DNA of 64,000 nt. Origin: Acidovorax sp. GBBC 1281. Its GTDB lineage: Bacteria > Pseudomonadota > Gammaproteobacteria > Burkholderiales > Burkholderiaceae_C. Below the pieces are notes generated by a model. That model was not told where the DNA came from and did no database searches. It saw only the letters and a list, made by a program, of their open reading frames with translations. Positions within the stretch are counted from its first letter, which is position 1. Each line of letters begins with the position of its first letter. The stretch spans positions 3,180,001 to 3,244,000 of the forward strand of contig NZ_CP097269.1 in assembly GCF_028473645.1 (NCBI RefSeq), read 5' to 3'. A program made the position numbers and the translations under genes. Of the stretch, positions 5,439 through 28,047 are shown piece by piece.

Positions 5439-6103
5439 TGCACCATCCCCCCGGCGCGCAGGCGCAACTCGATGTGGCGCAGCACCAGCGTGGTAGCGCC
5501 GGTGAGCACGAAGTACACGACCGCGATGGCCAGGTACACCTCCAGCGAGCGGTACGACACGCTGATGATCTTCTGCCCCTCGTGCATCAGGTCGTGGATG
5601 GTGAGCAGCGACACCAGCGCCGAGTTCTTGATGAGCGCGATGAACTCGTTGCCCAGCGGCGGAATCATGCGCACCACGGCCTGCGGCAGCACCACCCAGC
5701 GCATCGCCACGCCCGAGGACATGCCGATGGAGCGCGCGGCCTCCATCTGGCCCCGGTCGATGGACTGGATCGCGCCGCGCACGATCTCGGACACGTACGC
5801 GCCCGAGTAGATGCCCAGCCCGATCACGCCGCACAGGAACGCCGGCAGCAGGATGCCGAATTGCGGCAGTCCGAAGAACAGGATGAACAGCTGCACCAGC
5901 AGCGGCGTGCCGCGGATGGCCGCCACATAGGCCGTGCACAGGCCATACACGATGCGGCGCCGGGGGTCGAGGCGGCCGATGCCCACCAGCAACCCCATCA
6001 CGCAGCCCAGGAGCAGCGAGGCGGCCGTGATCTCCACGGTCACCAGCGCGCCCTCCAGCAGTTGGGGCCAGCCGGCCCACACGGGGGAAAAGTCGAGTTC
6101 CAT
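5435..6103 (-). CDS. Amino-acid ABC transporter, permease (HisM/GlnP type)
   Basis: 222-aa inner-membrane permease of the polar-amino-acid family. Hydrophobic segments near residues 15-40, 55-75, 85-110 and 185-210 fit the usual membrane helices. The cytoplasmic loop with [20 protein letters not shown] is the EAA motif that contacts the ATPase. Only one permease is encoded, suggesting a homodimer. It is placed between the binding protein (50 bp upstream) and the ATPase (4-bp overlap). Confidence 0.94.
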
Positions 6104-6153
6104 CGCTCGGGTTCAGTGCTTGTCGATTCGGTCGGCAACCATGGCGCGCCGGC

Positions 6154-6930
6154 TCACTTGGCGGCCGGCGTGGCCGCGGTGGTGGCGGCGCTGCCGCTGA
6201 ACCATTTCTTCACGATGGCCGCGTAAGTGCCGTCGGCCTTGAGCTTGGCCAGCGCGGCGTTCACCGCGCGGGTGAGCTCGGGCGTGTCCTTGCGCAGCGC
6301 CATGCCGTATTCCTCGGTGGTGAGCTGCTCTTCGATCACGCGCAGGCCGGGCCGGGTGCGCACGTACTGGTAGGCCGCGGGCTTGCCGGTGACGGCGGCG
6401 TCGGCGCGGCCGATGTCCACCAGGTTGAACATTTCCTGGTTCTTCTCGACCTCCACGCGCTGCGCCTTGGGGTAGTTCTGCGTGAGGAAGGCGACCGATT
6501 TGGTGCCCACCTGGACCGAGATCTTCTTGCCGTCCAGGTCGGCCGGCTTGCGGATGGTGGTGTTGCCTTCCTTGACCATGGCGACCAGGCCGCCGGCGTA
6601 GTAGGGCTCGGTGAAATCGACGACCTTCTTGCGCTCGTCGGTGATGTAGATGCCCGACACGGCCATGTCGAAGCGCCGCGAGATCAGGCCGGGGATCAGG
6701 CCCTTGAAGTCGATGTCCACCCACTCGACCTGCTTGCCCATGCTCTTGGCGACGGCCTCCACCAGCTCCACGTCGAAGCCGGTGCGCTTGCCGTTCTCGA
6801 CGAACTCCATCGGCGGGAAGGTGGCGTCGGTGGCCACGCGCAGCACGTTGTCTTGCGCGCGGGCGGCGGCAGCGCCCAGGGCGAACACGGCGGCCAGGCT
6901 GGCCAGGAGGAGATTGCGTCGGATGTTCAT
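6154..6930 (-). CDS. Amino-acid ABC transporter, periplasmic substrate-binding protein
   Basis: 258-aa protein with a clear Sec signal peptide ([19 protein letters not shown], cleavage expected after ARA near residue 25). The mature part opens [14 protein letters not shown] and continues [16 protein letters not shown], the standard start of family-3 solute-binding proteins for polar amino acids. It should capture substrate in the periplasm and deliver it to the permease encoded next. It follows the iclR gene by 70 bp, so the importer may be transcribed with or controlled by that regulator. The ligand is not identifiable from sequence; histidine or urocanate are the contextual guesses. Confidence 0.93.
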
Positions 6931-14840: not shown

Positions 14841-15309
14841 GTTACTACGCACAAGCCCTGATTTGGGCACGCACATTCCCACCGGGCGGGAGCCCCGGAG
14901 GCGGGCAATTGCTCGCGCCGGTCCGGGTGACGGGTGGGCTTGCAAGATCGGGGCCCGGCCAGCGTCCAGGCGAGCCGACCCGATGGCATTCCGACATTCG
15001 CTATTATTTTCATAGCAAAGGAGGCATGAAATATCCCGGCAACAGCCCTGTTTCGATCCCAAAGGCCCCATCGCCGGCGGCAGGCGGCCACCGGCGCCAC
15101 CGCTGCGGCGACCGGCGCAGGCCCGCACCGAAGGGCCCGGCCTGGTGCACCCCGCGCATCGCCATCCCACCGACTGCCCCAGCGCTGTGCGTCCCGGGCG
15201 GGCTTCCCGTGGAAAGTAGGTACAAGCCCGGTGCCCGCCCAGGGCAAGCCGGCGTGGCACGGGGGCCTCGCCCGTTAGAATTTGTTTTTATCTAGAAAAG
15301 CGCCCTGCC
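14841..15309. other. Divergent intergenic region between the hut cluster and the stressosome cluster
   Basis: 469 bp without a convincing gene. It contains the GCTAT-N7-ATAGC palindrome at 15000-15016 and a TAGAAT hexamer at 15276-15281 that could be the -10 element of the rsbR unit, though no good -35 is visible. Short open frames on both strands lack Shine-Dalgarno sites and recognisable similarity. Confidence 0.6.
15000..15016. repeat. Dispersed palindrome GCTAT-N7-ATAGC, copy 2
   Basis: GCTAT, TATTTTC, ATAGC in the divergent region between the hut and stressosome clusters. Confidence 0.8.
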
Positions 15310-16152
15310 ATGAAGCAGCAACACCCGGCCCTTCTTTCCCTTCTGGAAACCCACGAATCCGCCATCCTGGACGAGTGGCTGGCCGAGGCAGGCGTCCAAG
15401 ATCCCACCCACCAGCGCGCCACGGCGGCGCAAGCGCGAGAACTGCTGCAGCTGCTGCGCAGCGCGCTGCAGGCCGGCGGCGACGCGCAGGGTCACAATGG
15501 CCCGGCCTGGCAAGGCATGAACGAGGCGCTCGAAGCGCTCTCGCGCTCGCGGGCCTCGCGCGGCCAAACGGCTGGCGAGACCAGCGTGTTCGTCCAGGCC
15601 ATGAAAAAACCCCTCTTCACGCTGCTGCAGCAAACGGTGCCCGCCCATGCCGACCTGGTCCCGGCCCTGTGGTCCGCCACGGCGCTGGTCGACCAGCTGG
15701 CGCAGCGCACGGCCAACACCTTCCAGCAGGCGCGCGAGGACATCATCCGCCGCCAGCAGGAAGAGCTGCTGGAGCTGTCCACCCCCGTGGTGAAACTCTG
15801 GGACGGCGTGCTGGCCGTTCCCATGATCGGCGTGCTGGACAGCAACCGCACGCAGGTGGTCATGGAAACGCTGCTGCAGCGCATCCTGGAGACCGAGTCG
15901 GAACTCGCCATCATCGACATCACCGGGGTGCCCACCGTGGACACGCTGGTGGCGCAGCATCTGCTCAAGACCGTGGCGGCCATCCGGCTCATGGGCGCGG
16001 ACTGCATCATCAGCGGCATCCGCCCGCAGATCGCGCAGACCATCGTGCACCTGGGCATCGACCTGCAGGGCATCTACACGCGCGCCAACCTGGCGGACGC
16101 GCTGTCGCTGGCGCTGAACAAAACCGGCTGGCGCATCGCGCGCACGGCCTGA
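15310..16152 (+). CDS. rsbR: Stressosome scaffold/sensor protein RsbR (RsbRD-type N-terminus plus STAS)
   Basis: 280-aa protein. Residues 1-140 are helical and begin like the RsbRD-type N-terminal domain (LLSLLETHESAILDEWLAE); residues about 160-275 form a STAS domain. The two threonines phosphorylated by RsbT in Bacillus RsbRA are conserved: Thr205 in DITGVPTVDT and Thr244 in RPQIAQTIVHLG. In known stressosomes RsbR proteins build a large cytoplasmic complex with RsbS that holds RsbT until stress. It is the first gene of a tight plus-strand run; rsbS starts 15 bp later. The signal sensed by the N-domain is unknown. No strong Shine-Dalgarno precedes ATG 15310. Confidence 0.92.
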   Translation: MKQQHPALLSLLETHESAILDEWLAEAGVQDPTHQRATAAQARELLQLLRSALQAGGDAQGHNGPAWQGMNEALEALSRSRASRGQTAGETSVFVQAMKKPLFTLLQQTVPAHADLVPALWSATALVDQLAQRTANTFQQAREDIIRRQQEELLELSTPVVKLWDGVLAVPMIGVLDSNRTQVVMETLLQRILETESELAIIDITGVPTVDTLVAQHLLKTVAAIRLMGADCIISGIRPQIAQTIVHLGIDLQGIYTRANLADALSLALNKTGWRIARTA

Positions 16153-16167
16153 CCCCAGAGCGCTGCC

Positions 16168-16542
16168 ATGGACCGCATCCCCATCCTCCGCATGGGTCAG
16201 ACCCTGCTGATCACCATCCAGGTGGACATGCAGGACCGCACCGCCATCCAACTGCAAGACGACTTGGCCGACCGCATCGCCAAGACCGGCGCCACGGGCG
16301 TGATGATCGACATTTCAGGCCTGGAAATCGTGGATTCATTTGTCGGACGCATGCTGAGCAGCATCTCTGGAGTCGCGCGCATTCTTTCAGCACAAACGGT
16401 GGTCGTGGGCATGCAGCCCGCCGTGGCCATCACCCTGGTGGAACTGGGGCTGTCCCTGGAAGGCGTGCGCACCGCACTCAACGTGGAGCGCGGAATGCAA
16501 TTGCTGGAGCGCATCCGCCAGGAGCCACCCCTTGTCCGCTGA
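16168..16542 (+). CDS. rsbS: Stressosome core protein RsbS (single STAS domain)
   Basis: 124-aa single STAS domain. Compared with Bacillus RsbS, the regulatory serine is Ser57 in GLEIVDSFVGRML, and GMQPAVAITLVELGLSLEGV closely matches the Bacillus C-terminal half. RsbS is the scaffold partner of RsbR and the main RsbT substrate whose phosphorylation releases the kinase. Its stop overlaps the TTG start of rsbT by 11 bp, implying translational coupling. Confidence 0.93.
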   Translation: MDRIPILRMGQTLLITIQVDMQDRTAIQLQDDLADRIAKTGATGVMIDISGLEIVDSFVGRMLSSISGVARILSAQTVVVGMQPAVAITLVELGLSLEGVRTALNVERGMQLLERIRQEPPLVR

Positions 16543-16936
16543 TCCCGCCGGCACGTTGCCGATCGCGTCGGAGCAGCACATCGTCGCCTGCCGGCAGACG
16601 GTCCGCGTCCTGTGCACGCAGCTGAAGTTCTCGCTGGTGGACCAGACGAAGCTCATCACGGCGGCCAGCGAGCTGTCGCGCAACACCCTGGTGCACGGTG
16701 GCGGTGGCCGCATGCGCTGGGAAACCCTGGAGCGGCAGGGCCGCCATGGTCTGCAGCTGCATTTCGAAGACGAGGGGCCGGGCATCTCCGACCTGAAGCT
16801 CGCCCTGACCGATGGCTGGACCTCGGGCGGCGGCATGGGCCTGGGGCTACCGGGCAGCCGGCGCCTGGTCAATGAGTTCGACATTCACACGGCCCCTGGC
16901 GAAGGCACCCGCGTGAGCATCACCAAATGGAAGTAG
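16532..16936 (+). CDS. rsbT: Switch kinase RsbT
   Basis: 134-aa GHKL ATPase/serine kinase. The N-box ASELSRNTLVHGGGG, the G1 box DEGPGI and the glycine-rich GMGLGLPGSRRLVNEF match RsbT. RsbT phosphorylates RsbR and RsbS, leaves the complex and activates a downstream partner. The start is a TTG at 16532 with GGAG about 9 bases upstream, inside rsbS. The stop overlaps the start of the next gene by 10 bp. No RsbU-type phosphatase partner with a coiled-coil N-terminus was seen in the window, so its target after release is open. Confidence 0.93.
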   Translation: MSADPAGTLPIASEQHIVACRQTVRVLCTQLKFSLVDQTKLITAASELSRNTLVHGGGGRMRWETLERQGRHGLQLHFEDEGPGISDLKLALTDGWTSGGGMGLGLPGSRRLVNEFDIHTAPGEGTRVSITKWK

Positions 16937-17982
16937 CCGCCCCCACGGGCAACGCCCCCCAGTTGCTGATGGGATGGACGCACACGGCCTTCGCAATGGG
17001 TGACACCAGCTGCGTGGGCGAAGCACGGCGCTTCGCCGCCCACGCGAGTGCCGAGATGGAATGGGGCGACACCGACAGCGGGCGCCTGTCCATCGTGGTG
17101 ACCGAGCTGGCCAACAACCTGCACCTGCACGCCCACGAGGGCCGCTTGCTGATCGCGGCCGTGCCGGCGCTCGACCTGGTGGAGGTGATCGCCATCGACC
17201 ACGGGCCCGGCATAGAAGATTTGCCGCTGTCCATGCGCGACGGCTACTCCACCGGCGGCACGCAGGGCGCTGGGCTCGGTGCGGTCCGGCGGCTGGCGGA
17301 CGATTTCGATATCCACTCCTCCGTGCCGCAGGGCACGGTGTGCGTGGCCCGCGTGCGCCAGCACCGGGAGGCGGGCGATGCGCCAGCCGCCCTGCCCCAG
17401 ACCCTGCGGGTGGGGGCCATCCGGTTGCCGCTGGCGGGCGAGACCATGTGCGGCGATGCCTGGGCCGCGGCCCTGGACGGCCCCCGGGCCGCGCTGCTCG
17501 TGGCCGATGGTCTGGGCCATGGCAGCGAGGCCGCCAAGGCGTCCGGCGCGGCGGTGGACCTGTTCCTGCAAGCCCCGTTCGGCGACCTGCGCGAGCAGAT
17601 CGAAAGCATGCATGCCGAGCTGCAGTCCACGCGGGGCGCCGCCGTGTGCAGCTTGCGGCTGGATGCCACGGCGGCCACCGTGCGCAGCTCGGGCGTAGGC
17701 AACGTGGTGGCCCGCGTGGTCACGGGCCTGTCGGACCGCTCGGTCGTCACGCAGCACGGCACGGTGGGCCTGACCATGCGCCGGCCGCAGGAGACCACCA
17801 CCGAGCTGCCGCCCTATGCGCTGCTGGTGGTGCACAGCGACGGCATCGAAACCCGCTGGCATCCCGCCAGCATCCAGCGCCTGCTGGGCAGCGATCCCAC
17901 CCTGGTGGCCGCCGTGCTGCTGCGCGATCACCACCGGGCCCGCGACGACGCGACCGTGGTGGTGGTGCAGTGCATCGAGTGA
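16927..17982 (+). CDS. rsbX: RsbX-like SpoIIE/PP2C phosphatase fused to an RsbT-like ATPase domain
   Basis: 351-aa two-domain protein. Residues about 15-140 are a GHKL ATPase domain with N-box VVTELANNLHLHA, G1 box DHGPGI and glycine loop GGTQGAGLGAVRRLADDF, very like RsbT. Residues about 150-350 are a PP2C phosphatase with metal-binding Asp residues in LLVADGLGHGSEAAKAS, SDGIETRW and DDATVVVV. Bacillus RsbX is phosphatase only and resets RsbR/RsbS. Here a kinase-like and a phosphatase domain share one chain, so a single protein may both modify and reset the stressosome, or the first domain may act as an anchor. The start overlaps rsbT by 10 bp. Confidence 0.88.
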   Translation: MEVAAPTGNAPQLLMGWTHTAFAMGDTSCVGEARRFAAHASAEMEWGDTDSGRLSIVVTELANNLHLHAHEGRLLIAAVPALDLVEVIAIDHGPGIEDLPLSMRDGYSTGGTQGAGLGAVRRLADDFDIHSSVPQGTVCVARVRQHREAGDAPAALPQTLRVGAIRLPLAGETMCGDAWAAALDGPRAALLVADGLGHGSEAAKASGAAVDLFLQAPFGDLREQIESMHAELQSTRGAAVCSLRLDATAATVRSSGVGNVVARVVTGLSDRSVVTQHGTVGLTMRRPQETTTELPPYALLVVHSDGIETRWHPASIQRLLGSDPTLVAAVLLRDHHRARDDATVVVVQCIE

Positions 17983-18002
17983 CCCGAAGCACGAAAGACA
18001 CC

Positions 18003-18986
18003 ATGGACGGCACCTCCGACCTCATTTCCGACCGCACCTCCGAGGAACCCGCCACGCCGGCACCGACGCCGGCCCCCGCCGCTGCGCCCCAGGAATCCAT
18101 CGAGGCGCTGCGCGCCGCCCTGGCCGACAGCCAGCGGGAAGTCCAGGAGCTTAGCGCCGAGCTGGAGGAAACCAACCGCGGCGTGGTCGCGCTGTACTCC
18201 GAACTGGACGCGCAGGCCGAGCAGCTGCAAAAGGCCACGGAGATGAAGAGCCGTTTCCTGGCCTACATGAGCCACGAGTTCCGCACGCCCATCAACTCCA
18301 TCCGCAGCATCGCCCGGCTGCTGGCCGACCACGTGGACGGGCCGCTCAACACCGAGCAGGCCCGCCAGGTGGGGTTCATCCAGAGCACCGCGAGCGAGTT
18401 CGCCGACATGGTGGACGACCTGCTCGACCTGGCCAAGATCGAGGCCGGCCGCGTGGAAATCTCGCCCGCCTGGTTCGACATGCTGGACCTGTTCCAGGCC
18501 CTGCGCGGGATGTTCCGGCCGGTGCTGACCAACCCGGACGTCAACCTGTTCTTCGACGAGCCTCAGGGCATCGCGCCGCTGTACACGGACGACCGCAAGC
18601 TGTCGCAGATCCTGCGCAACTTCATCTCCAATGCGCTCAAGTTCACGCCCCGGGGCGAAGTGCGGGTATCGGCCCACGCCGTGGAAGGCGACCGCGTGCG
18701 CTTTTCGGTGACGGACACGGGCATTGGCATCGCGCCCGAATTCCATTCGAGCGTGTTCGACGACTACACGCAGATCGGCTCGTCGCTGCAAAAACGCCTG
18801 CGCGGCACTGGCCTCGGGCTGGCCGTGAGCCGCCAATTGGCCGAACTGCTGGGTGGCACGGTCACGCTCGAGAGCGCGCTGGGCAGCGGCTCGGTGTTCT
18901 CGCTGACGCTGCCGCTGCGGCTGCCAGGCAACGAAGCCGCGGCCACGGGGGCTCCCGCAACCACCGAGGGCGGTCCCCATGGGTAA
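18003..18986 (+). CDS. Cytoplasmic histidine kinase without sensor domain, stressosome-linked
   Basis: 327-aa kinase. A Pro/Ala/Thr-rich N-terminus (residues 15-30) leads into a coiled coil (about 35-80), then HisKA with phospho-acceptor His91 in MSHEFRTPINSI and an ATPase domain with N-box NFISNALKFTP, DTGIGI and GTGLGLAVS. No transmembrane or PAS domain is present, so input must come through the coiled coil or a partner, perhaps released RsbT. The start is ATG 18003, 20 bp after the RsbX-like gene. The 3' end overlaps the next kinase by 8 bp. It is likely part of the same operon as rsbRST. Confidence 0.9.
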   Translation: MDGTSDLISDRTSEEPATPAPTPAPAAAPQESIEALRAALADSQREVQELSAELEETNRGVVALYSELDAQAEQLQKATEMKSRFLAYMSHEFRTPINSIRSIARLLADHVDGPLNTEQARQVGFIQSTASEFADMVDDLLDLAKIEAGRVEISPAWFDMLDLFQALRGMFRPVLTNPDVNLFFDEPQGIAPLYTDDRKLSQILRNFISNALKFTPRGEVRVSAHAVEGDRVRFSVTDTGIGIAPEFHSSVFDDYTQIGSSLQKRLRGTGLGLAVSRQLAELLGGTVTLESALGSGSVFSLTLPLRLPGNEAAATGAPATTEGGPHG

Positions 18987-20970
18987 CGGCATGCAGGACG
19001 TCAGCGCCATCCACACGACCATCGACCGCGCCGCGCACACGGTGCTGGTGGTGGACGACAACCCGGTCACGCGCTACTCCACCGTCCGGGTCATCCGCGC
19101 CGCCGGCTTTCAGACCGTGGAGGCCGACAACGGCACCGAGGCCATCCGCCTGGCGGCCACCGGCGTGTCGGCCGTGGTGCTGGACGTGCACCTGCCCGAC
19201 ATCGACGGCTTCGAGGTCTGCCGGATCATCCGCCAGCAGGAAGCCACGGTGCTGCTGCCGGTCACGCACCTTTCCGCCGCCCACGTGCACAGCGAAGACC
19301 GGGTGACCGGCTTGAACGCGGGGGCCGATGCCTATCTCACGCATCCGGTGGAGCCGGCGCTGCTGGTGGGCACGCTGCAGGCGCTGATCCGTGCGCGCAT
19401 GGCCGAAGACGGCCTGCGCCGCAGCGACCGCCGCTTTCGCGCCATCTACAGCCAGGCGCTGGCGGGCATCGGCCTGATCCAGCCCGACGGCCGTTTCACC
19501 GACGTCAACCCCGCCATGATGCGGCTGCTGGACCGCTCGCGCGAGGAGCTGCTGGGCCACCCCATCAGCGACTTCGCGCCGCCCGGCTGGCTGGATTTCA
19601 TCACCGAAAAAACCGTGGGGGGAGAGCGGGGCCAGCCCTGGCAGGGAGAGTTTCCGCTGCAGCGCCCCGACGGCGCATGGGTGTACCTGGAGTGGAGCAT
19701 CTCGGCCCACGTGGAGCCCGGCCTGCGCATGGCGATCGCGGCCGACATCTCCGAGCGCATGGAACTCGACTCCCGCCGCCAGGACGTGCTGGAGCGCGAG
19801 CAGGCGGCCCGCGCCACCGCCGAGCGCCTGAGCCGCACCAAGGACGATTTCATTGCGGTGCTCTCGCACGAACTGCGCACGCCGCTGAACGCCATCGCTG
19901 GATGGGTGCACATCCTCAAGCGCCGCGGCGGCACGCCCGAACTGCTCAAGGGCCTGGACTCCATCCACCGCAACGTGAAGGCGCAGGCGCGCATCATCTC
20001 GGACATCCTCGACGTGTCGCGCATCAACAGCGGCAAGCTGCACCTGGAGCGGGAATGGATCGACCCCGTCGAATCGGTGCGCTCCTCCATCGACGCGCTG
20101 CAGGCCTCGATCGCCGAAAAGCGCCTGGACGTGGTGCTGGCCGTGCAGGACGCGAATGCCCCCGCCTGGCTTGACCCGACGCGCTTTCAGCAGATCTTCT
20201 GGAACCTGCTGACCAATGCCATCAAGTTCTCCAACGACGGCGCGCGCATCGACGTGTCGCTGCGGCGCGAGAAGGGCCTGCTCACCCTGTCCGTGCGGGA
20301 CTACGGGCGCGGCATCGCCAGCGAATTCATCGACCACCTGTTCGACCGGTTCACGCAGAGCGACTCGCCCGACAACCGCCGCCACGGCGGCCTGGGCCTG
20401 GGGCTGTCGATCGTCAAGCAGCTGGCCGAACTGCACGGCGGCCGCGCCACCGCCGTGAGCGCCGGGCTCGACCAGGGCACCACCATGCAGGTGATGCTGC
20501 CGGTGGACCACAAAGGGGGCGACACGACACGCGCGGCGCCCCAGGGCGACGATGCCCCGGCCGATCCGCCGATGAACGACCGCCCCCTGGCGGGCCTGGA
20601 CATCCTCATCGTGGAAGACCATCCCGATGCGCGCGAAATGCTCACCGTGGTGCTCACCGATGGCGGCGCGCGCCTGCGCGAAGCCGGCGACCACGACGCG
20701 GCCATGCAGGCACTGGCCGAACGCTGGCCCGACGTGCTGGTCTGCGACATCGGACTGCCCGGGCGCGACGGCTACGACCTGGTCCGCAGCCTGCGCTCGC
20801 TGCCCCTGCCCGAAGGCAAGGTCCAGCCGATTGCCATCGCGCTGACCGCCTTCTCCCGCGCGCAGGACGCGCAGCGGGCCCTGGAAGCGGGATTCGACGC
20901 GCACCTGGGCAAGCCCTTGCAGCCCCATGCCCTGATGGCCACCATCAACCGACTGGCCGATTCACGCTGA
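18979..20970 (+). CDS. Hybrid histidine kinase REC-PAS-HisKA-HATPase-REC
   Basis: 663 aa. Receiver 1 spans about residues 20-140 (acid pocket Asp26/Asp27, phospho-acceptor Asp69 in VVLDVHLPD). PAS covers about 150-265, HisKA has His297 in LSHELRTPLNAI, and the ATPase domain carries N-box LLTNAIKFS and GGLGLGLSIVKQ. Receiver 2 is about 540-660 with Asp in CDIGLPGRDGYD and Lys in HLGKPLQP. In receiver 1 the nearly invariant lysine is replaced by His122 (YLTHPVEP), so its phospho-signalling may be altered. There is no membrane segment. The start overlaps the preceding kinase by 8 bp. It may accept phosphate from that kinase through receiver 1; this is inference. Confidence 0.9.
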   Translation: MGNGMQDVSAIHTTIDRAAHTVLVVDDNPVTRYSTVRVIRAAGFQTVEADNGTEAIRLAATGVSAVVLDVHLPDIDGFEVCRIIRQQEATVLLPVTHLSAAHVHSEDRVTGLNAGADAYLTHPVEPALLVGTLQALIRARMAEDGLRRSDRRFRAIYSQALAGIGLIQPDGRFTDVNPAMMRLLDRSREELLGHPISDFAPPGWLDFITEKTVGGERGQPWQGEFPLQRPDGAWVYLEWSISAHVEPGLRMAIAADISERMELDSRRQDVLEREQAARATAERLSRTKDDFIAVLSHELRTPLNAIAGWVHILKRRGGTPELLKGLDSIHRNVKAQARIISDILDVSRINSGKLHLEREWIDPVESVRSSIDALQASIAEKRLDVVLAVQDANAPAWLDPTRFQQIFWNLLTNAIKFSNDGARIDVSLRREKGLLTLSVRDYGRGIASEFIDHLFDRFTQSDSPDNRRHGGLGLGLSIVKQLAELHGGRATAVSAGLDQGTTMQVMLPVDHKGGDTTRAAPQGDDAPADPPMNDRPLAGLDILIVEDHPDAREMLTVVLTDGGARLREAGDHDAAMQALAERWPDVLVCDIGLPGRDGYDLVRSLRSLPLPEGKVQPIAIALTAFSRAQDAQRALEAGFDAHLGKPLQPHALMATINRLADSR

Positions 20971-20978
20971 CTTTTTGC

Positions 20979-23651
20979 ATGACCCCCTCCCCTGCCACCG
21001 CCACCACCGCAGACAGCGACCGCTTCGCGCACATCTTCGTCGGGGACAGCGAGATGGCGCAGCTCATGCGCGCCCACGACTGGGAGGCCACCCCGCTCGG
21101 ATCGCCGGCGTTCTGGCCAGAGCCGCTGAAAGTGGCGCTGCGCATCCTGCTCACCTCGCGCTTCGAGATGTGGCTGGGCTGGGGGCCGGACATCGCTTTC
21201 TTCTACAACGACGCCTATCGCCCCACGCTGGGGGCCAAGCACCCGCGAGCGCTCGCGCGCCCGACCGCCGAGGTCTGGGCGGAGATCTGGGACCAGGTGA
21301 AGGGCCGCATGCACGCCGTGTACGAGCGGGCCGAGTCCACCTGGGACGACTCGCTCATGCTGCTGCTGGACCGCGCGGGCTACCTGGAGGAGACGTACCA
21401 CACGTTTTCGTACAGCCCCTTGCACGGCGACGACGGCCAGGTCTTCGGCCTGTTCTGCGCGGTATCGGAAGACACGGGCCGCGTGCTCAACGAGCGGCGC
21501 CTGCGCCTGCTGCGCGAACTGGGCGCGGCGCTGTCGGCGGTCAACAGCCGCCGGGCTGTGCTCGACACCGCCTGCGAGCGGATGGGCCAGGCCCAACGGG
21601 ACCTGCCGTTTTCACTCGTCTACCTGTACGAACCCTCGGGCGTGGCCCGTCTGAGCTGCAACGCAGGCATCGAACAGGGCCATCGACTGGCGCCCACCGT
21701 GCTGGATATGAACTCCCGGGAGCCGTGGCAGGTCCACCGCCTGCAAGCTGGCGACGTGGCCTTCGCCGTGCCGCTGGATGCGGTGGACGACGTGCCCACC
21801 GGCGACTGGGATACGCCGGCGCGGGCGGCGTTCGTCGTGGCGCTGCCGGCCCAGGGCGGCGCGCGGTCGGCGGGGTTCATGGTCTGCGGGGCCAACCCCC
21901 ATCGGCCCATGCACGACGGTGAGGCCATGGCGTTCGTGCAACTGCTGGCCGGTCAGATCGCCTCGCGCCTGGCCAGCGCCGGGGTGCTGGAGGAAAGCAC
22001 GGCGGAACGCGATCGCCTGCGCAGCCTGTTCCAGAAGGCGCCCGGCTTCATGTGCGTGCTGCGCGGCCCGGAGCATGTGTTCGAGTTCGTCAACGACTCC
22101 TATGTGCAGTTGATCGGGCACCGCAGCGTGGAAGGCAAGACGGTGCGCGAAGGCCTGCCCGAGCTGGAAGGCCAGGGGCTGTACGAACTGCTGGACGAGG
22201 TCTACCGCACCGGGCAGCCGTACCTGGCCCAGGGCCTCAAGGTCCTCATCCAGCAAAAGCCCGGCATGCCGCTGGCCGAGCGCTACCTGGATTTCATCTA
22301 CCAACCCACCACCGACGGCCAGGGCGAGGTCACCGGCGTGTTCGCCGAGGGCTACGACGTGACGGAAAAGGTGGTGGCTGAACAGGAGCTTCGCGCGCTG
22401 AACAGCCACCTGGAAGCGCGCGTGGTCGAGCGCACCCAGGAGGTCGAGAACGCGCTCGCGCGACTCACCACCGAATCGCGCGAGCGCGAAGCCGCGCAGG
22501 AGGCGCTGCGCCAGTCGCAGAAGATGGAGGCCGTGGGGCAGCTCACGGGCGGGCTCGCGCACGACTTCAACAACCTGCTGGCCACGATCACGGGCAGCCT
22601 GGAACTGCTGCACCGCCGCGTGGGCCAGGGCCGCTACGACGACCTGGAGCGCTATGTGAGCGTCGGCCAGGGCGCCGCCAAGCGGGCCGCCTCGCTCACC
22701 CACCGCATGCTGGCCTTCTCGCGCCGGCAGACACTGGACCCCAAGCCCACGGACGTGAACCGGCTCGTGAAGGGCATGGAAGAGCTGATCCGGCGCACCA
22801 TCGGGCCTGAAAACGAGCTGGAGGTGGTGGGCGCCGTCGGCCTGTGGACCACGCACGTGGACCCCCACCAACTGGAAAGCGCCCTGCTCAACCTGTGCAT
22901 CAACTCGCGCGACGCCATGCCGGGCGGCGGCCGGCTCACCATCGAGACCGCCAACAAGTGGATGGACGAGCGTGCCTCCCTGGACCGCGACCTGCCCCCG
23001 GGCCAGTACGTGTCGCTGTGCGTGACCGACACCGGCACCGGCATGGCGCCCGAGATCATCCACCGCGTGTTCGAGCCCTTCTTCACCACCAAGCCGATCG
23101 GCATGGGCACGGGCCTGGGGCTGTCGATGGTCTATGGATTCGCGCGGCAGTCCGGCGGCCAGGTGCGCGCCTATTCCGAGCCCGGCATGGGCACGACGAT
23201 GTGCATCTACCTGCCTCGGCACGAGGCGCCGGCCCAGGACATCGACCTGCCCTCGGCGCCGTCGATCGCGGGAGGCCAGGGCTCGGGCACCGTGCTGGTG
23301 GTGGACGACGAGCCGAGCGTGCGGTCGCTGGTGGTGGAGGTGCTGCAGGAGATGGGCTACGACACCATCGAAGCGCAGGACGGGGCATCGGGGCTGCTGG
23401 TGCTGCAATCGAGCACCCACCTCGACCTTCTGATCACCGACGTGGGCCTGCCCGGTGGAATGAACGGGCGGCAGATGGCCGACAGCGGCCGGGTCTACCG
23501 GCCGGACCTGAAAATCCTGTTCATCACCGGCTACGCCGAGAACGCGGCCGTGGGCAACGGCCACCTGGAGCGGGGCATGCAGGTGCTCACCAAGCCCTTC
23601 ACGCTGGACGCGCTCGCGCGCCGGGTGCAAGGGCTCATCGCCCCGCCCTGA
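20979..23651 (+). CDS. Hybrid histidine kinase PAS-GAF-PAS-HisKA-HATPase-REC
   Basis: 890-aa soluble hybrid kinase. The N-terminal PAS-like region (about 20-170) contains WLGWGPDIAFFYNDAYRPTL; a GAF-like region covers about 180-340 and a second PAS about 350-475, followed by a coiled coil. HisKA carries His528 in GGLAHDFNNLLATI, and the ATPase domain has LCINSRDAMPGGG, DTGTGMAPE and GTGLGLSMVYG. The C-terminal receiver has Asp821 in LITDVGLPGG and Lys in VLTKPFTLD. The AHDFNN H-box and attached receiver are typical of kinases whose receiver may act in cis. The start lies 8 bp after the previous stop without a clear Shine-Dalgarno. Signals are unknown. Confidence 0.9.
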   Translation: MTPSPATATTADSDRFAHIFVGDSEMAQLMRAHDWEATPLGSPAFWPEPLKVALRILLTSRFEMWLGWGPDIAFFYNDAYRPTLGAKHPRALARPTAEVWAEIWDQVKGRMHAVYERAESTWDDSLMLLLDRAGYLEETYHTFSYSPLHGDDGQVFGLFCAVSEDTGRVLNERRLRLLRELGAALSAVNSRRAVLDTACERMGQAQRDLPFSLVYLYEPSGVARLSCNAGIEQGHRLAPTVLDMNSREPWQVHRLQAGDVAFAVPLDAVDDVPTGDWDTPARAAFVVALPAQGGARSAGFMVCGANPHRPMHDGEAMAFVQLLAGQIASRLASAGVLEESTAERDRLRSLFQKAPGFMCVLRGPEHVFEFVNDSYVQLIGHRSVEGKTVREGLPELEGQGLYELLDEVYRTGQPYLAQGLKVLIQQKPGMPLAERYLDFIYQPTTDGQGEVTGVFAEGYDVTEKVVAEQELRALNSHLEARVVERTQEVENALARLTTESREREAAQEALRQSQKMEAVGQLTGGLAHDFNNLLATITGSLELLHRRVGQGRYDDLERYVSVGQGAAKRAASLTHRMLAFSRRQTLDPKPTDVNRLVKGMEELIRRTIGPENELEVVGAVGLWTTHVDPHQLESALLNLCINSRDAMPGGGRLTIETANKWMDERASLDRDLPPGQYVSLCVTDTGTGMAPEIIHRVFEPFFTTKPIGMGTGLGLSMVYGFARQSGGQVRAYSEPGMGTTMCIYLPRHEAPAQDIDLPSAPSIAGGQGSGTVLVVDDEPSVRSLVVEVLQEMGYDTIEAQDGASGLLVLQSSTHLDLLITDVGLPGGMNGRQMADSGRVYRPDLKILFITGYAENAAVGNGHLERGMQVLTKPFTLDALARRVQGLIAPP

Positions 23652-23872
23652 GGTCCTGCCCGTTGAGCCATCCCACTGCAGCCGACAGGCACGGGGTTCG
23701 CCATCGCTGCCGCCGCAGCGACGGCCTCGGGCCGTACCGTCCCCGCCCTCTGCAAGCACAGGTGTTGCAGGCACAAAACAGACGGTTAACCTGCCCGCTG
23801 CCATGGGCAGATCCAGCCCCTAAAATCTTGCTGCAGTCTTTTCTGCCCATCCCGATCCCCTGCCCTTCTTCC
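23652..23872. other. Gap before bphO with a possible -10 element
   Basis: 221 bp between the last hybrid kinase and bphO. A TAAAAT hexamer at 23821-23826, about 47 bp before the proposed bphO start, could be a -10 element, but no matching -35 is visible. The gap raises the possibility that bphO-bphP is a separate transcription unit. Confidence 0.4.
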
Positions 23873-24532
23873 GTGTCACAGCGATCCCCTCTCCCTTCCG
23901 GCACCCCGGTGCCGGAGACCGACTGCCTTTCGGCGCTGCGACGAACCACGAAGGAATCGCACGCGCAGCTGGATGCCAGCCTGCCGCTCGGCAGGGCCGA
24001 TGCCAGCCTGGAAGACTACCGCCACCACACCCTGGCGCTGAGCGCCTGGCTCACGGCGCTGCAGCCGCATCTGGCGGCCCTGGAGTCGCTGGTGCCCGGT
24101 TTCGACTTTGCGCGCTCCGCCCGCCTGCACGCCTTGCACGCGGACTGGCTGGCAACGCACACCGCGCCGGCACAAGCCGAAGACGGCTTCGGTGATATCA
24201 GCGGCTGCACGCAGGAGATGGCGGCGCAGGCGTTTTCCGCCTTCGGGGCGCCAGGCCATGCCGCCGTCTGCTGGGGCCTGGCCTATGTGGTGGAAGGCTC
24301 GCAATTGGGCGGCCAGTTTCTGTACCAGCGCCTGGCGCCCCGCTTTGCGCCGCATCCGCTGCGCTATTTGCAGGGCCTGGGTGCCGGCACGGGTTTGCGC
24401 TGGAAACATTTCACCAGGCTGCTCGATACCCACGTGCAGAGCCATTTCGATATCCAGGCGGCCTGCGCCGGCGCACGCGCCGGCTTCGATGGCCTGCGGC
24501 AACAGTTGCAGGGCCAGGGGGTGCTTGCATGA
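23873..24532 (+). CDS. bphO: Biliverdin-producing heme oxygenase BphO
   Basis: 219-aa heme oxygenase that opens heme to biliverdin, the chromophore of the phytochrome encoded next. The proposed proximal heme ligand is His30 in RRTTKESHAQLD. The distal-helix glycine-rich region is visible as LAYVVEGSQLGGQFLYQ, close to other bacterial phytochrome-linked heme oxygenases. No ATG is available upstream of the homology; the GTG at 23873 gives a family-like length but lacks a good Shine-Dalgarno, so the start is tentative. The stop overlaps the bphP ATG (ATGA), so both proteins are probably made together. Confidence 0.9.
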   Translation: MSQRSPLPSGTPVPETDCLSALRRTTKESHAQLDASLPLGRADASLEDYRHHTLALSAWLTALQPHLAALESLVPGFDFARSARLHALHADWLATHTAPAQAEDGFGDISGCTQEMAAQAFSAFGAPGHAAVCWGLAYVVEGSQLGGQFLYQRLAPRFAPHPLRYLQGLGAGTGLRWKHFTRLLDTHVQSHFDIQAACAGARAGFDGLRQQLQGQGVLA

Positions 24533-26751
24533 TCCAGTCATTCACACCCGGCACCACCACCACGCTGGACAACTGCGACCGCGAGCCCATCCACGTGCCG
24601 GGCAGCATCCAGAGCCACGGCACCCTGATAGCGGTAGACCGCGAAGGCGTGGTCCGCCATGTCGGCGCCAACGTGCAGGCCCTTCTGCACTGCGGCGTGA
24701 CCGTGGGCGAGCCCCTGCCCGAAAACCCGGGCACCGTGTGCCCGCTGATTGCCGCGCTCCTGCAGGACGGCCTGCAGGCGCTGCGGGGCGAGCGGGATGT
24801 GCCCATGCCCAGCGAGCTGCAGGTGGAAGACCGCCAGTTCGACGTGGTGCTGCATGTCGGCAGCGCGATGCTGGTCGCCGAATTCGAACTGCGCCACCAG
24901 ACCCACAGCGAGCTGGCAGGCTTTGCCGTGCAGGCCCACCGCGCGATGGAAAAGCTGCGCCGGCCCCGGGCCATCGATGAACTTCTGCAGCTGGCCACCG
25001 AAGAACTGCGGGCCCTGACCGGCTTCGACCGGGTGATGGCCTATCGCTTTCGCCACGACAGCAGCGGCGAAGTGGCCGCCGAATCGTGTGTCGACACGCT
25101 CGACCCCTACCTGGGCCGACGCTATCCGGCCAGCGACATTCCAGCGCAGGCACGCCGGCTCTACGTGGCCAACACCCTGCGGCTGATCGCCGACGTGCGC
25201 TCGGCCGCGGTGCCCCTGCTGCAGGAGGCCGGCGCGCCCCCGCTGGACCTGAGCGGCAGCATCCTGCGCAGCGTGTCGCCGATCCACATCGAATACCTGT
25301 CCAACATGGGCGTGGGTGCCTCGATGAGCGTGTCCATCGTGATCAACGAACAGCTCTGGGGCCTGATCGCCTGCCACCACATGGGTCCGCGCCAGGTGCC
25401 CTACAGCGTGCGCATGGCCTGCGACGTGATCGCCCAGGTGCTGTCGGCCAACATTCAGAGCACGCTCTCGCGCTCCCAGGCGGACCGCTTGCAGCAACTG
25501 GCCGGTGCGCGCACCCACCTCATCGAAGAGTTGCTGCACGCGGACGACGAATTCACCGCCCTGACCCAGCACACGGCCGAGATGGCCGCCATCTTGCAGG
25601 CCGATGCGGCGCTGGTGGCCCATGGCGCGAAGCTGACCGTTTTCGGCGAGGTGTCGGAAGCGGCGGGCAGCGCCATCGTGCAATGGCTGGCCGCCGAGCC
25701 GGTCCAGGACCGGCAGCGCCTGTTCCAGACCCAGTCGCTGCCGCAGCTTGCACCCGACCTGGCCGCCGTGACGTCGCCCTGGTGCGGCGTGCTGGGCATT
25801 CCTTTCGACCGGGACCGCAACGGCTGGTTGATCTTTCTTCGCAAGGAGCAGATCGAGACCATCCACTGGGGCGGCAAGCCAGACAAGGACATTCGCCATG
25901 GCCCCCTGGGACCGCGGCTCACCCCGCGCGGCTCGTTCGATCTGTGGAAGGAAACCGTCCGGTCCACCGCCGAGCATTGGAGCACGCTGGAACTGGACGC
26001 CGCCCGGCAGTTGATGGACGAACTCGTGCGCGTGCAGAACGCGCGCACCGCCGAGATCAACCGCACGCGCAACCAGCTGATGGCCGTGCTGGGCCACGAT
26101 CTGCGTGACCCGCTGCACTCCATCAGCATGGCCGCGCGCGTGCTCGAACAGGGCGGCACCGACGGCGGGCGGGCCGGCAGGATCGGCCAGCGCATCCAGT
26201 CCTCCAGCAGCCGCATGCAGCGGCTGGTGAGCCAGGTGATGGACATGTCGCGCCTGCAGAGCGGCCTGGGACTGGATCTGCAGCGCACGGACGTGGATCT
26301 GGTCGCCCTGTTGAACGACCTCATCGACGAGGCCCGCACGGCGCACCCCGGCACCGAGATCGTGGGCACCATCCCCGCTGCCCTGAAAGCCCAGGTCGAT
26401 GCCGATCGCATTGCCCAGGTGGTCGTCAACCTGATCGGCAACGCGCGGCACCATGGCCAGAGCGGACATCCCATCGAGGTGCATGCCAGCGCCACTGGTG
26501 AATGGCACGAGATCGCCGTGCGCAATGTCGCCGCCCCCATTCCGGAAGACATCGCCCGCAATCTGTTCAGCCCGTTCAAGGCCTCTTCGGTCGGCAACGC
26601 GCGCAATCGGTCGGGGATGGGACTGGGGCTGTACATCGCCCACCAGATCGTCCAGGGGCACGGGGGCAGCATCGGGTACGAATACCGCGCCCCCCATGTT
26701 GTCTTTTCGGTCCGGTTGCCGGTGCAGAGGCCGGGCACAATAGAGGCTTAA
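24529..26751 (+). CDS. bphP: Bacteriophytochrome histidine kinase BphP
   Basis: 740-aa red/far-red photoreceptor kinase. Domains are PAS (about 10-120), GAF (about 135-320), PHY (about 330-510) and HisKA/HATPase (about 510-735). Cys16 in LDNCDREPIHVPGSIQSHG is the expected biliverdin attachment site. The GAF chromophore motif PASDIP contains Asp203. The PHY tongue shows the PRxSF motif at residues 466-470 (PRGSF). The kinase H-box is GHDLRDPLHSI with His523, followed by N-box NLIGNARHHG and GMGLGLYIAHQ. All key residues for a photoactive kinase are therefore present. The start is fixed by the ATGA overlap with bphO. The likely phosphate acceptor is the single-domain regulator 69 bp downstream. 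Confidence 0.97.
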   Translation: MIQSFTPGTTTTLDNCDREPIHVPGSIQSHGTLIAVDREGVVRHVGANVQALLHCGVTVGEPLPENPGTVCPLIAALLQDGLQALRGERDVPMPSELQVEDRQFDVVLHVGSAMLVAEFELRHQTHSELAGFAVQAHRAMEKLRRPRAIDELLQLATEELRALTGFDRVMAYRFRHDSSGEVAAESCVDTLDPYLGRRYPASDIPAQARRLYVANTLRLIADVRSAAVPLLQEAGAPPLDLSGSILRSVSPIHIEYLSNMGVGASMSVSIVINEQLWGLIACHHMGPRQVPYSVRMACDVIAQVLSANIQSTLSRSQADRLQQLAGARTHLIEELLHADDEFTALTQHTAEMAAILQADAALVAHGAKLTVFGEVSEAAGSAIVQWLAAEPVQDRQRLFQTQSLPQLAPDLAAVTSPWCGVLGIPFDRDRNGWLIFLRKEQIETIHWGGKPDKDIRHGPLGPRLTPRGSFDLWKETVRSTAEHWSTLELDAARQLMDELVRVQNARTAEINRTRNQLMAVLGHDLRDPLHSISMAARVLEQGGTDGGRAGRIGQRIQSSSSRMQRLVSQVMDMSRLQSGLGLDLQRTDVDLVALLNDLIDEARTAHPGTEIVGTIPAALKAQVDADRIAQVVVNLIGNARHHGQSGHPIEVHASATGEWHEIAVRNVAAPIPEDIARNLFSPFKASSVGNARNRSGMGLGLYIAHQIVQGHGGSIGYEYRAPHVVFSVRLPVQRPGTIEA

Positions 26752-26820
26752 GAAGAAGACTATTGGACTTGATCGTTCGATGGTCTTTAAAAAAACACTG
26801 TACCGTCAGCGAAGCCCCGC

Positions 26821-27207
26821 ATGCCTGCAGACATTCTCATCATTGACGACAACCGCGATGCCTCCGAACTGCTGAGCGACCTGCTCGATCTGCAGGGCTA
26901 CACGGTGCGCGTCGCCCACAGCGGCAGCGAAGCGCTGCAGCATATGGCGCAGCGCCCCGCCTCGCTGTTCCTCGTGGACCAGCAACTGCCCGACATGCTC
27001 GGCACCCAGCTCGTTCCGCAACTGCGCGCTGCAGCGGCCGGCCGGCCCTGCATCGCGATCGCCATCACGGGATTGGGCGTTTCGGACCGGGCGCAGTTGA
27101 TCGGTTTCGATCACGTGCTGGCCAAACCGCTGGCCTTCGATGCGTTCGACGCCCTGATCGCTGCCTGCGCAGCCCAGCTGGACCAGCAAGGCGACGCAGA
27201 GCGCTGA
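26821..27207 (+). CDS. Single-domain response regulator (CheY-like)
   Basis: 128-aa receiver with no output domain. Acid pocket Asp9/Asp10 in LIIDDNRD, phospho-acceptor Asp53 in FLVDQQLPD, a Thr in AITGLG and Lys102 in VLAKPLAF are all conserved. The position directly after bphP suggests that it takes phosphate from the phytochrome kinase and passes the light signal on by protein contact. The 69-bp gap holds an A/T-rich stretch, so a separate promoter is possible. No strong Shine-Dalgarno is seen. Confidence 0.9.
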   Translation: MPADILIIDDNRDASELLSDLLDLQGYTVRVAHSGSEALQHMAQRPASLFLVDQQLPDMLGTQLVPQLRAAAAGRPCIAIAITGLGVSDRAQLIGFDHVLAKPLAFDAFDALIAACAAQLDQQGDAER

Positions 27208-27513
27208 CGGATAGCTGACGACCCCGCTCCACCCGGGCACACGCGGCCATGCTGCGACAAGCCAACCAACCGTCGGCCGGCATGCGCGTGGCGATAATGC
27301 CTCGCTCCATGGCGAGTGCACGTGAATGTCGGGGAATGTGCGGGCTTCAGGGGCTCCAGCCGCCGCCAAGCACTTCGCCTTTACCCATAAAACAGCGGCT
27401 TTGGCCCACGAGGCCAGGGCTGCCCCGAGTGTCAGAGCAATCCGTTCAGGTGTCTTGTGCTGGACTGGCAGGGATTGCGAGGACTCTTACACTCGACCGC
27501 CCGGAAACCCTCC
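27208..27513. other. Intergenic region before the MarR gene
   Basis: 306 bp with no supported gene, repeat or terminator. Short open frames here lack ribosome-binding sites. It presumably carries the promoter of the MarR-family gene. Confidence 0.5.
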
Positions 27514-28047
27514 ATGCATGAATCTCCCGTCGATCCATCCACCGTCCAACACCTGCTCGGCTACGCCCTGGCACAGGCACGGGTAGCGGCCAACCGCGCC
27601 TTTTTCCAGGCGATCGGCGAGCCCATGCAATTGCGCACCGTCGAATTTTCCCTGTTGATGCTGCTCATGCCCGGCGAAGGATTGTCCCAACGGCAGCTGG
27701 CGCAGGCGCTCAACCTGAGTGCGCCCAACCTCACCCTGGTGGTGAGCCGACTGCAGAGCCGGGGCCTGCTGGTGCGCGAGCGCAATCCCACCGATCGCCG
27801 GGCACAGGCCATCCGCCTCACGGCCGAGGGCCTGTCCATTGCCCGGCACGCGCATGCCATTTCGCTGGAGATGGAAGCAGGCATGCGCCAGCTGTACTCG
27901 CCGGCCGAATGGGCGCTGCTGCTGGAGTTGCTGCAGCGCGTCAGCCCCGGCGCGCAGTCGGCCAGCGAGGAGCAGGCGCGGGCAGCCCAGCGGCAGGCGA
28001 CTCGTGCCCCCATCGGCCACCAGCGCAACAATATCAACGGCATATAG
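27514..28047 (+). CDS. MarR-family transcriptional regulator
   Basis: 177-aa regulator. A winged helix-turn-helix occupies about residues 45-115: SQRQLAQALNLSAPNLTLVV is the recognition region and ERNPTDRRAQAIRLT the wing with the MarR-typical DRR motif. Flanking helices provide dimerisation. The C-terminal 30 residues are a polar tail rich in Ala, Gln and Arg. The start is ATG 27514; an upstream extension to 27457 has no homology. The target is unknown; neighbours are the phytochrome response regulator upstream and the glycogen operon 540 bp downstream. A 17-bp palindrome begins at the last base of its stop codon. Confidence 0.9.
   Translation: MHESPVDPSTVQHLLGYALAQARVAANRAFFQAIGEPMQLRTVEFSLLMLLMPGEGLSQRQLAQALNLSAPNLTLVVSRLQSRGLLVRERNPTDRRAQAIRLTAEGLSIARHAHAISLEMEAGMRQLYSPAEWALLLELLQRVSPGAQSASEEQARAAQRQATRAPIGHQRNNINGI

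Follow-up and report, generated by a model that had tools for sequence, protein, structure and literature searches.

Gene Content and Organization of the Locus

The window analyzed here is a stretch of 64,000 nucleotides of Acidovorax sp. GBBC 1281 (contig NZ_CP097269.1). Ten genes, all on the plus strand, occupy its positions 15310 to 27207 in the order rsbR-rsbS-rsbT-rsbX-HK1-HHK2-HHK3-bphO-bphP-REC (Table 1). Pfam searches and coordinates agree with the gene content given in an earlier note on this DNA. Its description of overlaps or gaps of 8-20 bp up to position 23651 also matches the spacings, which are 15, -11, -10, 20, -8 and 8 bp from rsbR to HHK3. Past this point they are 221 bp (HHK3/bphO), -4 bp (bphO/bphP) and 69 bp (bphP/REC). 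As noted before, the run lacks a sigma factor and RsbU: Pfam matched neither a sigma-factor domain nor RsbU_N in the ten proteins. No DNA-binding output is encoded within the ten genes.

Table 1. Features of the ten-gene run and the promoter-like sites (positions in the window)
Feature	Position	Strand	Basis
Promoter-like site 5' of rsbR	15254..15281	+	Consensus scan, 9/12 matches
rsbR, stressosome co-antagonist	15310..16152	+	Pfam RsbRD_N sensor domain + STAS
rsbS, antagonist	16168..16542	+	Pfam STAS; S57 at phospho-serine position
rsbT, switch kinase	16532..16936	+	Pfam HATPase_c; TTG start, 11 bp overlap with rsbS
rsbX variant	16927..17982	+	Pfam HATPase_c_2 (aa 30-139) + SpoIIE/PP2C (aa 186-348)
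HK1, histidine kinase	18003..18986	+	Pfam HisKA + HATPase_c; N-terminal coiled coil, aa about 50-80
HHK2, hybrid kinase	18979..20970	+	Pfam REC-PAS-HisKA-HATPase-REC
HHK3, hybrid kinase	20979..23651	+	Pfam GAF_2, PAS_4-HisKA-HATPase-REC; 8 bp past HHK2
Promoter-like site 5' of bphO	23798..23826	+	Consensus scan
bphO, heme oxygenase	23873..24532	+	Pfam Heme_oxygenase; GTG start at 23873
bphP, bacteriophytochrome	24529..26751	+	Pfam PAS_2-GAF-PHY-HisKA-HATPase
Lone receiver (REC)	26821..27207	+	Pfam Response_reg

The genes had been described as one run. They do share one strand and the limits given, but the run here is probably split into two transcription units with the break before bphO, as suggested by the wide gap and the weak promoter-like site at this place. 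The consensus scan found two promoter-like sites in the region, compared with a mean of 1.1 in shuffled sequences; since this number is near chance, both sites carry little weight by themselves. Upstream of bphO, the -10-like hexamer is TAAAAT in the window and in L074, and TAGAAT in L075 and L076, these three loci belonging to the closest relatives. The run is followed by a gene of a MarR-family regulator (27457-28047), which L074-L076 also have. No such gene was detected in L077-L084; there, glgC is the next gene.

Stressosome Proteins and the Two-Domain RsbX

An RsbR with sensor and STAS domains, a STAS protein RsbS and an ATPase RsbT are encoded together, and the known phosphosite positions of the STAS domains hold residues that can be phosphorylated. 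Solved chains of RsbR align with residues 133-274 of the window RsbR (best E 1.4e-32), and the best match of RsbS is solved RsbS (E 9.2e-31). For RsbT, no solved chain was found at E of 0.01 or better. Residues S178 and T212 of RsbR and S57 of RsbS align with the phosphosite positions of the solved proteins, with Ser at position 178 in place of the Thr of solved RsbR; these positions are conserved among 103 RsbR and 101 RsbS sequences. In Bacillus subtilis, S59 and T171 are the phosphosites according to PMC7522486. The start codon of rsbT, as picked by script in 15 relatives of the genus, is TTG in 14 and GTG in one; the TTG start, with its 11-bp overlap with rsbS, perhaps limits the amount of the switch kinase.

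The rsbX product had earlier been called an RsbX-like phosphatase. This is correct for its SpoIIE phosphatase domain, which carries the metal-binding aspartates of a feedback phosphatase and matches the solved chain 3w40, but a second, RsbT-like ATPase domain at the N-terminus had gone unnoticed. The active-site motif residues E60, N64, D91, G93 and G95 of the ATPase domain and D177, D194, D305, D340 and D341 of the phosphatase are invariant in all 23 RsbX sequences compared. The solved chains 3zt9 and 3w40 (193 and 199 residues) align with the phosphatase part only, over aa 159-347 and 166-308, and the ATPase domain has no counterpart in the alignments. 3zt9 is the RsbX homologue of Moorella thermoacetica and 3w40 the RsbX of B. 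subtilis; the phosphatase domain is common to both and the window RsbX. Long stop-to-stop frames hinted at RsbX-HK1 fusion proteins, a reading that was rejected on finding rsbX and HK1 in different frames in the loci compared (L085, L099, L107, L139, L171). A second RsbT-like gene stands between rsbX and HK1 in L110 and L111 and in a number of more distant loci (L173, L181-L183, L192 and others).

Comparison with Known Systems

The rsbRSTX and VvD1-VvD2 genes of Vibrio vulnificus form a similar module: in PMC9237108 and PMC10014275 the order is rsbR-S-T-X with two-component genes a few bases behind, and neither RsbU nor a sigma factor is described in it. The function of its downstream two-component module has been linked to the stressosome by mutants (PMC9237108, PMC10014275). 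According to PMC9237108, the sensor of Vibrio RsbR is a globin and its RsbX is called a single-domain PP2C, whereas the window RsbR has RsbRD_N and the window RsbX carries the additional HATPase_c_2 domain; the outputs are VvD1-VvD2 in Vibrio versus HK1 and HHK2 (and HHK3) in the window. With the RsbRST-RsbU system of B. subtilis, as described in PMC12143880 and PMC7522486, the locus shares RsbR, RsbS, RsbT and the matching phosphosite positions. Unlike that system, RsbU_N is missing from the 17 genus genomes searched, the run has no sigma-B cascade, and rsbX adjoins rsbT and encodes a two-domain product.

Distribution of the Core Genes

The two-domain RsbX occurs in 24 of 200 genomes of the family, and 35 loci (15 from the genus and 20 from the family) were fetched around it. 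HK1 comes after rsbX in 34 of them. A match to HHK2 after HK1 was found in 30 loci, three of which cover only 52-65% of the HHK2 length; an HHK3-type kinase takes its place in four, and L113 has neither HK1 nor a good HHK2. In a wider scan, HK1 (at least 49% identity) was present in 71 of the best 80 of 526 loci, one being a fragment, including loci of Cupriavidus, Nostoc and planctomycetes. The nine loci of these 80 without an HK1 match comprise contig ends (L166, L172, L176), a broken HK1 (L121), a fusion of the coil with HHK2 (L171), more distant kinases (L175, L178, L191) and an HHK3-type kinase (L187). Such counts refer to a sample rich in draft genomes with broken contigs, and 10 of the best 80 of 526 loci have less than 6 kb downstream. 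L121 of Variovorax sp. J22R24 is a second copy of the module, in which the HK1 coil is kept and the rest of HK1 is broken; L118 of the same organism has an intact HK1.

With HK1 directly 3' of rsbX across phyla, the core rsbR-rsbS-rsbT-rsbX-HK1-HHK2 is a widespread stressosome with a histidine-kinase output, of a kind already published.

HK1 as the Candidate Target of the Stressosome

HK1 has no recognised sensor domain, and a search for RsbU_N in it stayed negative up to an E of 10. A search of the 200 genomes yielded 22 close homologues (at least 53% identity and at least 296 bits), all 22 beside a two-domain RsbX, the next-best match having 211 bits. Two of the 24 RsbX-bearing genomes (G105, G016) contained no close HK1. 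RsbU_N, the known target domain of RsbT, was absent from all 17 genomes of the genus, while the search control was positive for B. subtilis (1 of 14 control genomes). Because its close homologues in the 200 genomes stand only beside rsbX and the 17 genus genomes lack RsbU_N, HK1 is the best candidate target of the stressosome. The earlier suggestion that the switch kinase acts on two-component proteins is most likely, given the position of HK1 next to rsbX across phyla and this absence of RsbU_N.

The putative contact site is the N-terminal coil. RsbT was reported to activate RsbU by ordering a coiled-coil linker, an idea which its authors extend to histidine kinases (PMC12143880). In HK1, the coil (aa 56-80) has a mean majority identity of 0.84 over 93 sequences; HisKA and the ATPase domain reach 0.80 and 0.74. 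In a same-locus control, the values were 0.87 for the HK1 coil and 0.84 for its HisKA versus 0.74 for the HHK2 linker coil and 0.77 for the HHK2 HisKA. Since the linker coil of HHK2 is nearly as conserved, conservation of the HK1 coil alone is no proof of docking.

In the loci compared, which were mostly chosen by RsbX and are biased in this respect, the coil motif was seen solely at the HK1 position, and several HK1 homologues do not fit the motif expression. A protein search with the coil region, which admits only proteins of similar length, gave 720 matches among 779 candidates; the 120 matches listed are all short histidine kinases. L171, a 4435-bp MAG contig, has the HK1 coil (at about 2154) joined directly to PAS and an HHK2-like hybrid kinase, and HK1's own kinase domains are missing. 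This natural fusion fits a coil that would serve as the input module acting on the HHK2 side. For Vibrio, PMC9237108 states that no contact could be detected between RsbT and VvD1, the kinase encoded downstream, and it treats RsbT signalling to histidine kinases without RsbU_N as an open point.

Linkage and Origin of the Phytochrome Genes

BphP has a PAS-GAF-PHY core, an N-terminal Cys, a PASDIP motif and a histidine kinase, is encoded next to a heme oxygenase, and matches its best solved bacteriophytochrome at E 2.4e-177. The heme oxygenase, bacteriophytochrome and small receiver stand together also in the hmuO-RtBphP1-RR-hybrid kinase operon of Ramlibacter tataouinensis, with a hybrid kinase nearby (PMC6848086). 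The Ramlibacter layout BphP-RR-hybrid kinase described there is matched by L194, the second phytochrome locus of the window's genome, whereas the window bphP lies on another branch. The L194 phytochrome is about 30% identical to the window BphP; with it lie a frame resembling a receiver and a hybrid kinase whose core is HHK3-like.

Within the genus, RsbX and bphP lie within 8 kb of each other in 12 of 17 genomes and apart in four (G088, G190, G210, G213), and both are missing in G200. The gene-order comparison proposed in the earlier note has a divided outcome: both halves are linked in 12 of the 16 genus genomes that have them, all of one clade, and elsewhere they stand apart. A phytochrome match was found in 19 of 24 RsbX genomes of the family sample (up to five candidates scored per genome) and in 12 of 17 of the order sample (up to two). 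In each of these samples, which overlap in the window's genome, G088 and G190, only the window's own genome had the pair within 10 kb (1 of 19 and 1 of 12); the nearest other pairs in the order sample were about 35, 38 and 53 kb apart. As a general design, light-stress integration is not supported: outside one clade, the finding matches what the earlier note had named as refuting, homologous clusters that routinely lack one half.

In the wider scan, five of the best 80 of 526 loci have a phytochrome in the flanks, namely those of Paracidovorax valerianellae, P. cattleyae, P. oryzae, an uncultured Acidovorax and Xenophilus arseniciresistens, the last with a different phytochrome. In the loci of P. 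wautersii and Acidovorax sp. Leaf160, the core is present and the phytochrome is not. In the X. arseniciresistens locus (L139), a phytochrome (30% identical), a receiver and a hybrid kinase of the L194 type begin 697 bp after HHK2. With an assumed 60 loci and 1.5 phytochromes per 5.5 Mb, and with the tendency of signalling genes to cluster left out of account, a rough estimate gives 0.33 linkages by chance and 4% for two or more. That the two linked lineages, the window clade and X. arseniciresistens, exceed chance is suggestive at most.

The linked genomes form one clade in quick, midpoint-rooted trees, with an SH-aLRT of 100 for the core and 96-98 for BphP. As read from both gene trees, HHK3-bphO-bphP-REC is a clade-specific addition of one origin. 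The named neighbours suggest that the window is from a Paracidovorax. A full-length HHK3 is present in all 12 linked genomes of the genus (75-100% identical), whereas in the remaining five the matches are confined to the kinase core. Two further full-length homologues (57% and 49% identical) were found among the 200 family genomes. Descent of HHK3 from the hybrid kinases that partner phytochromes was considered and rejected: its core is 59-67% identical to theirs, yet shows no particular grouping with them.

REC comes after bphP in all 11 linked relatives. In the unlinked loci compared, bphO-bphP stand apart in 10 of 10, with REC behind bphP in 8 of 10. In L213 (about 5581-6215), the bphO upstream of the unlinked bphP appears to be split into two parts, each in another frame. 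Between HHK3 and bphO, the 11 linked relatives have spacings of 224, 174, 122, 84, -4, 8, 192, -4, -4, 206 and -4 bp, with gene starts picked by script. Four of them (L078, L081, L082, L084) have an ATGA overlap with no other in-frame start listed nearby, which makes coupling plausible there; L079 has the 8-bp gap and an ATGA start as well. The upstream and downstream neighbours of the run are kept in all 11, so the retained linkage is weak evidence for joint function, and the HHK3-bphO spacing tells more.

Proposed Functioning and Alternative Explanations

The locus probably represents two signalling operons side by side, one encoding a stressosome with a histidine-kinase output and the other a red/far-red sensor, with HHK3 and the light genes added once. 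Gene content, conservation, motifs and the single origin are the observed basis of this model. RsbR and RsbS would hold RsbT. On stress, RsbT would phosphorylate both and leave, and either this released kinase or the RsbT-like domain of RsbX would act on HK1, most likely through the N-terminal coil. HK1 would then pass phosphate to receivers, those of HHK2 first, and RsbX would reset the complex by dephosphorylating RsbR and RsbS. In the other operon, BphO would make biliverdin and BphP would signal to the lone receiver. HHK3 would have come in between the operons in a single event, along with the light genes, in the common ancestor of one Paracidovorax clade. All protein contacts, the order in which phosphate is passed on and any signalling from one operon to the other are predicted from sequence. 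Against the model speak the undetected RsbT-VvD1 interaction in Vibrio, the two RsbX-bearing genomes with no close HK1, the HHK2 linker coil conserved nearly as well as the HK1 coil, the near-chance number of promoter-like sites and the synteny of the whole neighbourhood in the 11 linked relatives.

It is quite possible that the two halves are mere neighbours: the phytochrome operon would have landed by the stressosome operon in one ancestor and been inherited vertically, with no functional tie. Such an accident accords with the one origin on both trees, the separate bphO-bphP in the 10 unlinked loci compared, the equally syntenic flanks and the promoter-like site, though weak, upstream of bphO. 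It accounts less well for HHK3, which arrived with the light genes yet adjoins HHK2 at 8 bp, and for the ATGA overlap of HHK3 and bphO, which implies joint transcription in part of the clade.

Another explanation concerns the output and is rather unlikely, namely that RsbT does not act on HK1 and that the true output is either the RsbT-like domain of RsbX or some target whose gene lies elsewhere. The invariant motif residues of the second ATPase domain and the extra RsbT-like gene of some loci are consistent with it, but the confinement of close HK1 homologues to the neighbourhood of rsbX and the lack of RsbU_N in the genus argue for HK1.

One integrated light-and-stress system, in which HK1, HHK2, HHK3 and BphP share receivers and light acts on the stressosome output via HHK3 or the lone receiver, is improbable. 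The 8 bp between HHK2 and HHK3, the ATGA overlaps with the short gap of L079, the linkage kept in 12 of 12 clade members and the different phytochrome set behind HHK2 in X. arseniciresistens speak for it; against it stand the gap of 84-224 bp before bphO in the window and six of 11 relatives, the equal conservation of flanking genes, the chance estimate from assumed numbers, and the HHK3 core, which is no sister of phytochrome-adjacent hybrid kinases. Shared receivers and an integration of light with stress, as the earlier note proposed, are conjectural. Very doubtful is the combined proposal that RsbT or the RsbT-like half of RsbX controls HK1 by docking on its conserved N-terminal coil in place of RsbU_N and that the phosphorelay of the Paracidovorax clade shares receivers with the bacteriophytochrome via HHK3.

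Significance of the Locus

The locus is of an ordinary kind; likely new here are the two-domain RsbX, the conserved sensor-less kinase as the likely stressosome output, and the clade-specific attachment of a phytochrome. No report of a stressosome-phytochrome gene linkage was found in the open-licence literature searched. The locus type offers a small and widely conserved test case, in which a two-domain RsbX adjoins a sensor-less kinase with close homologues found nowhere else in the 200 genomes. The linked clade is a natural experiment, as related genomes with and without the attached phytochrome operon can be compared for whether light reaches the stress output.
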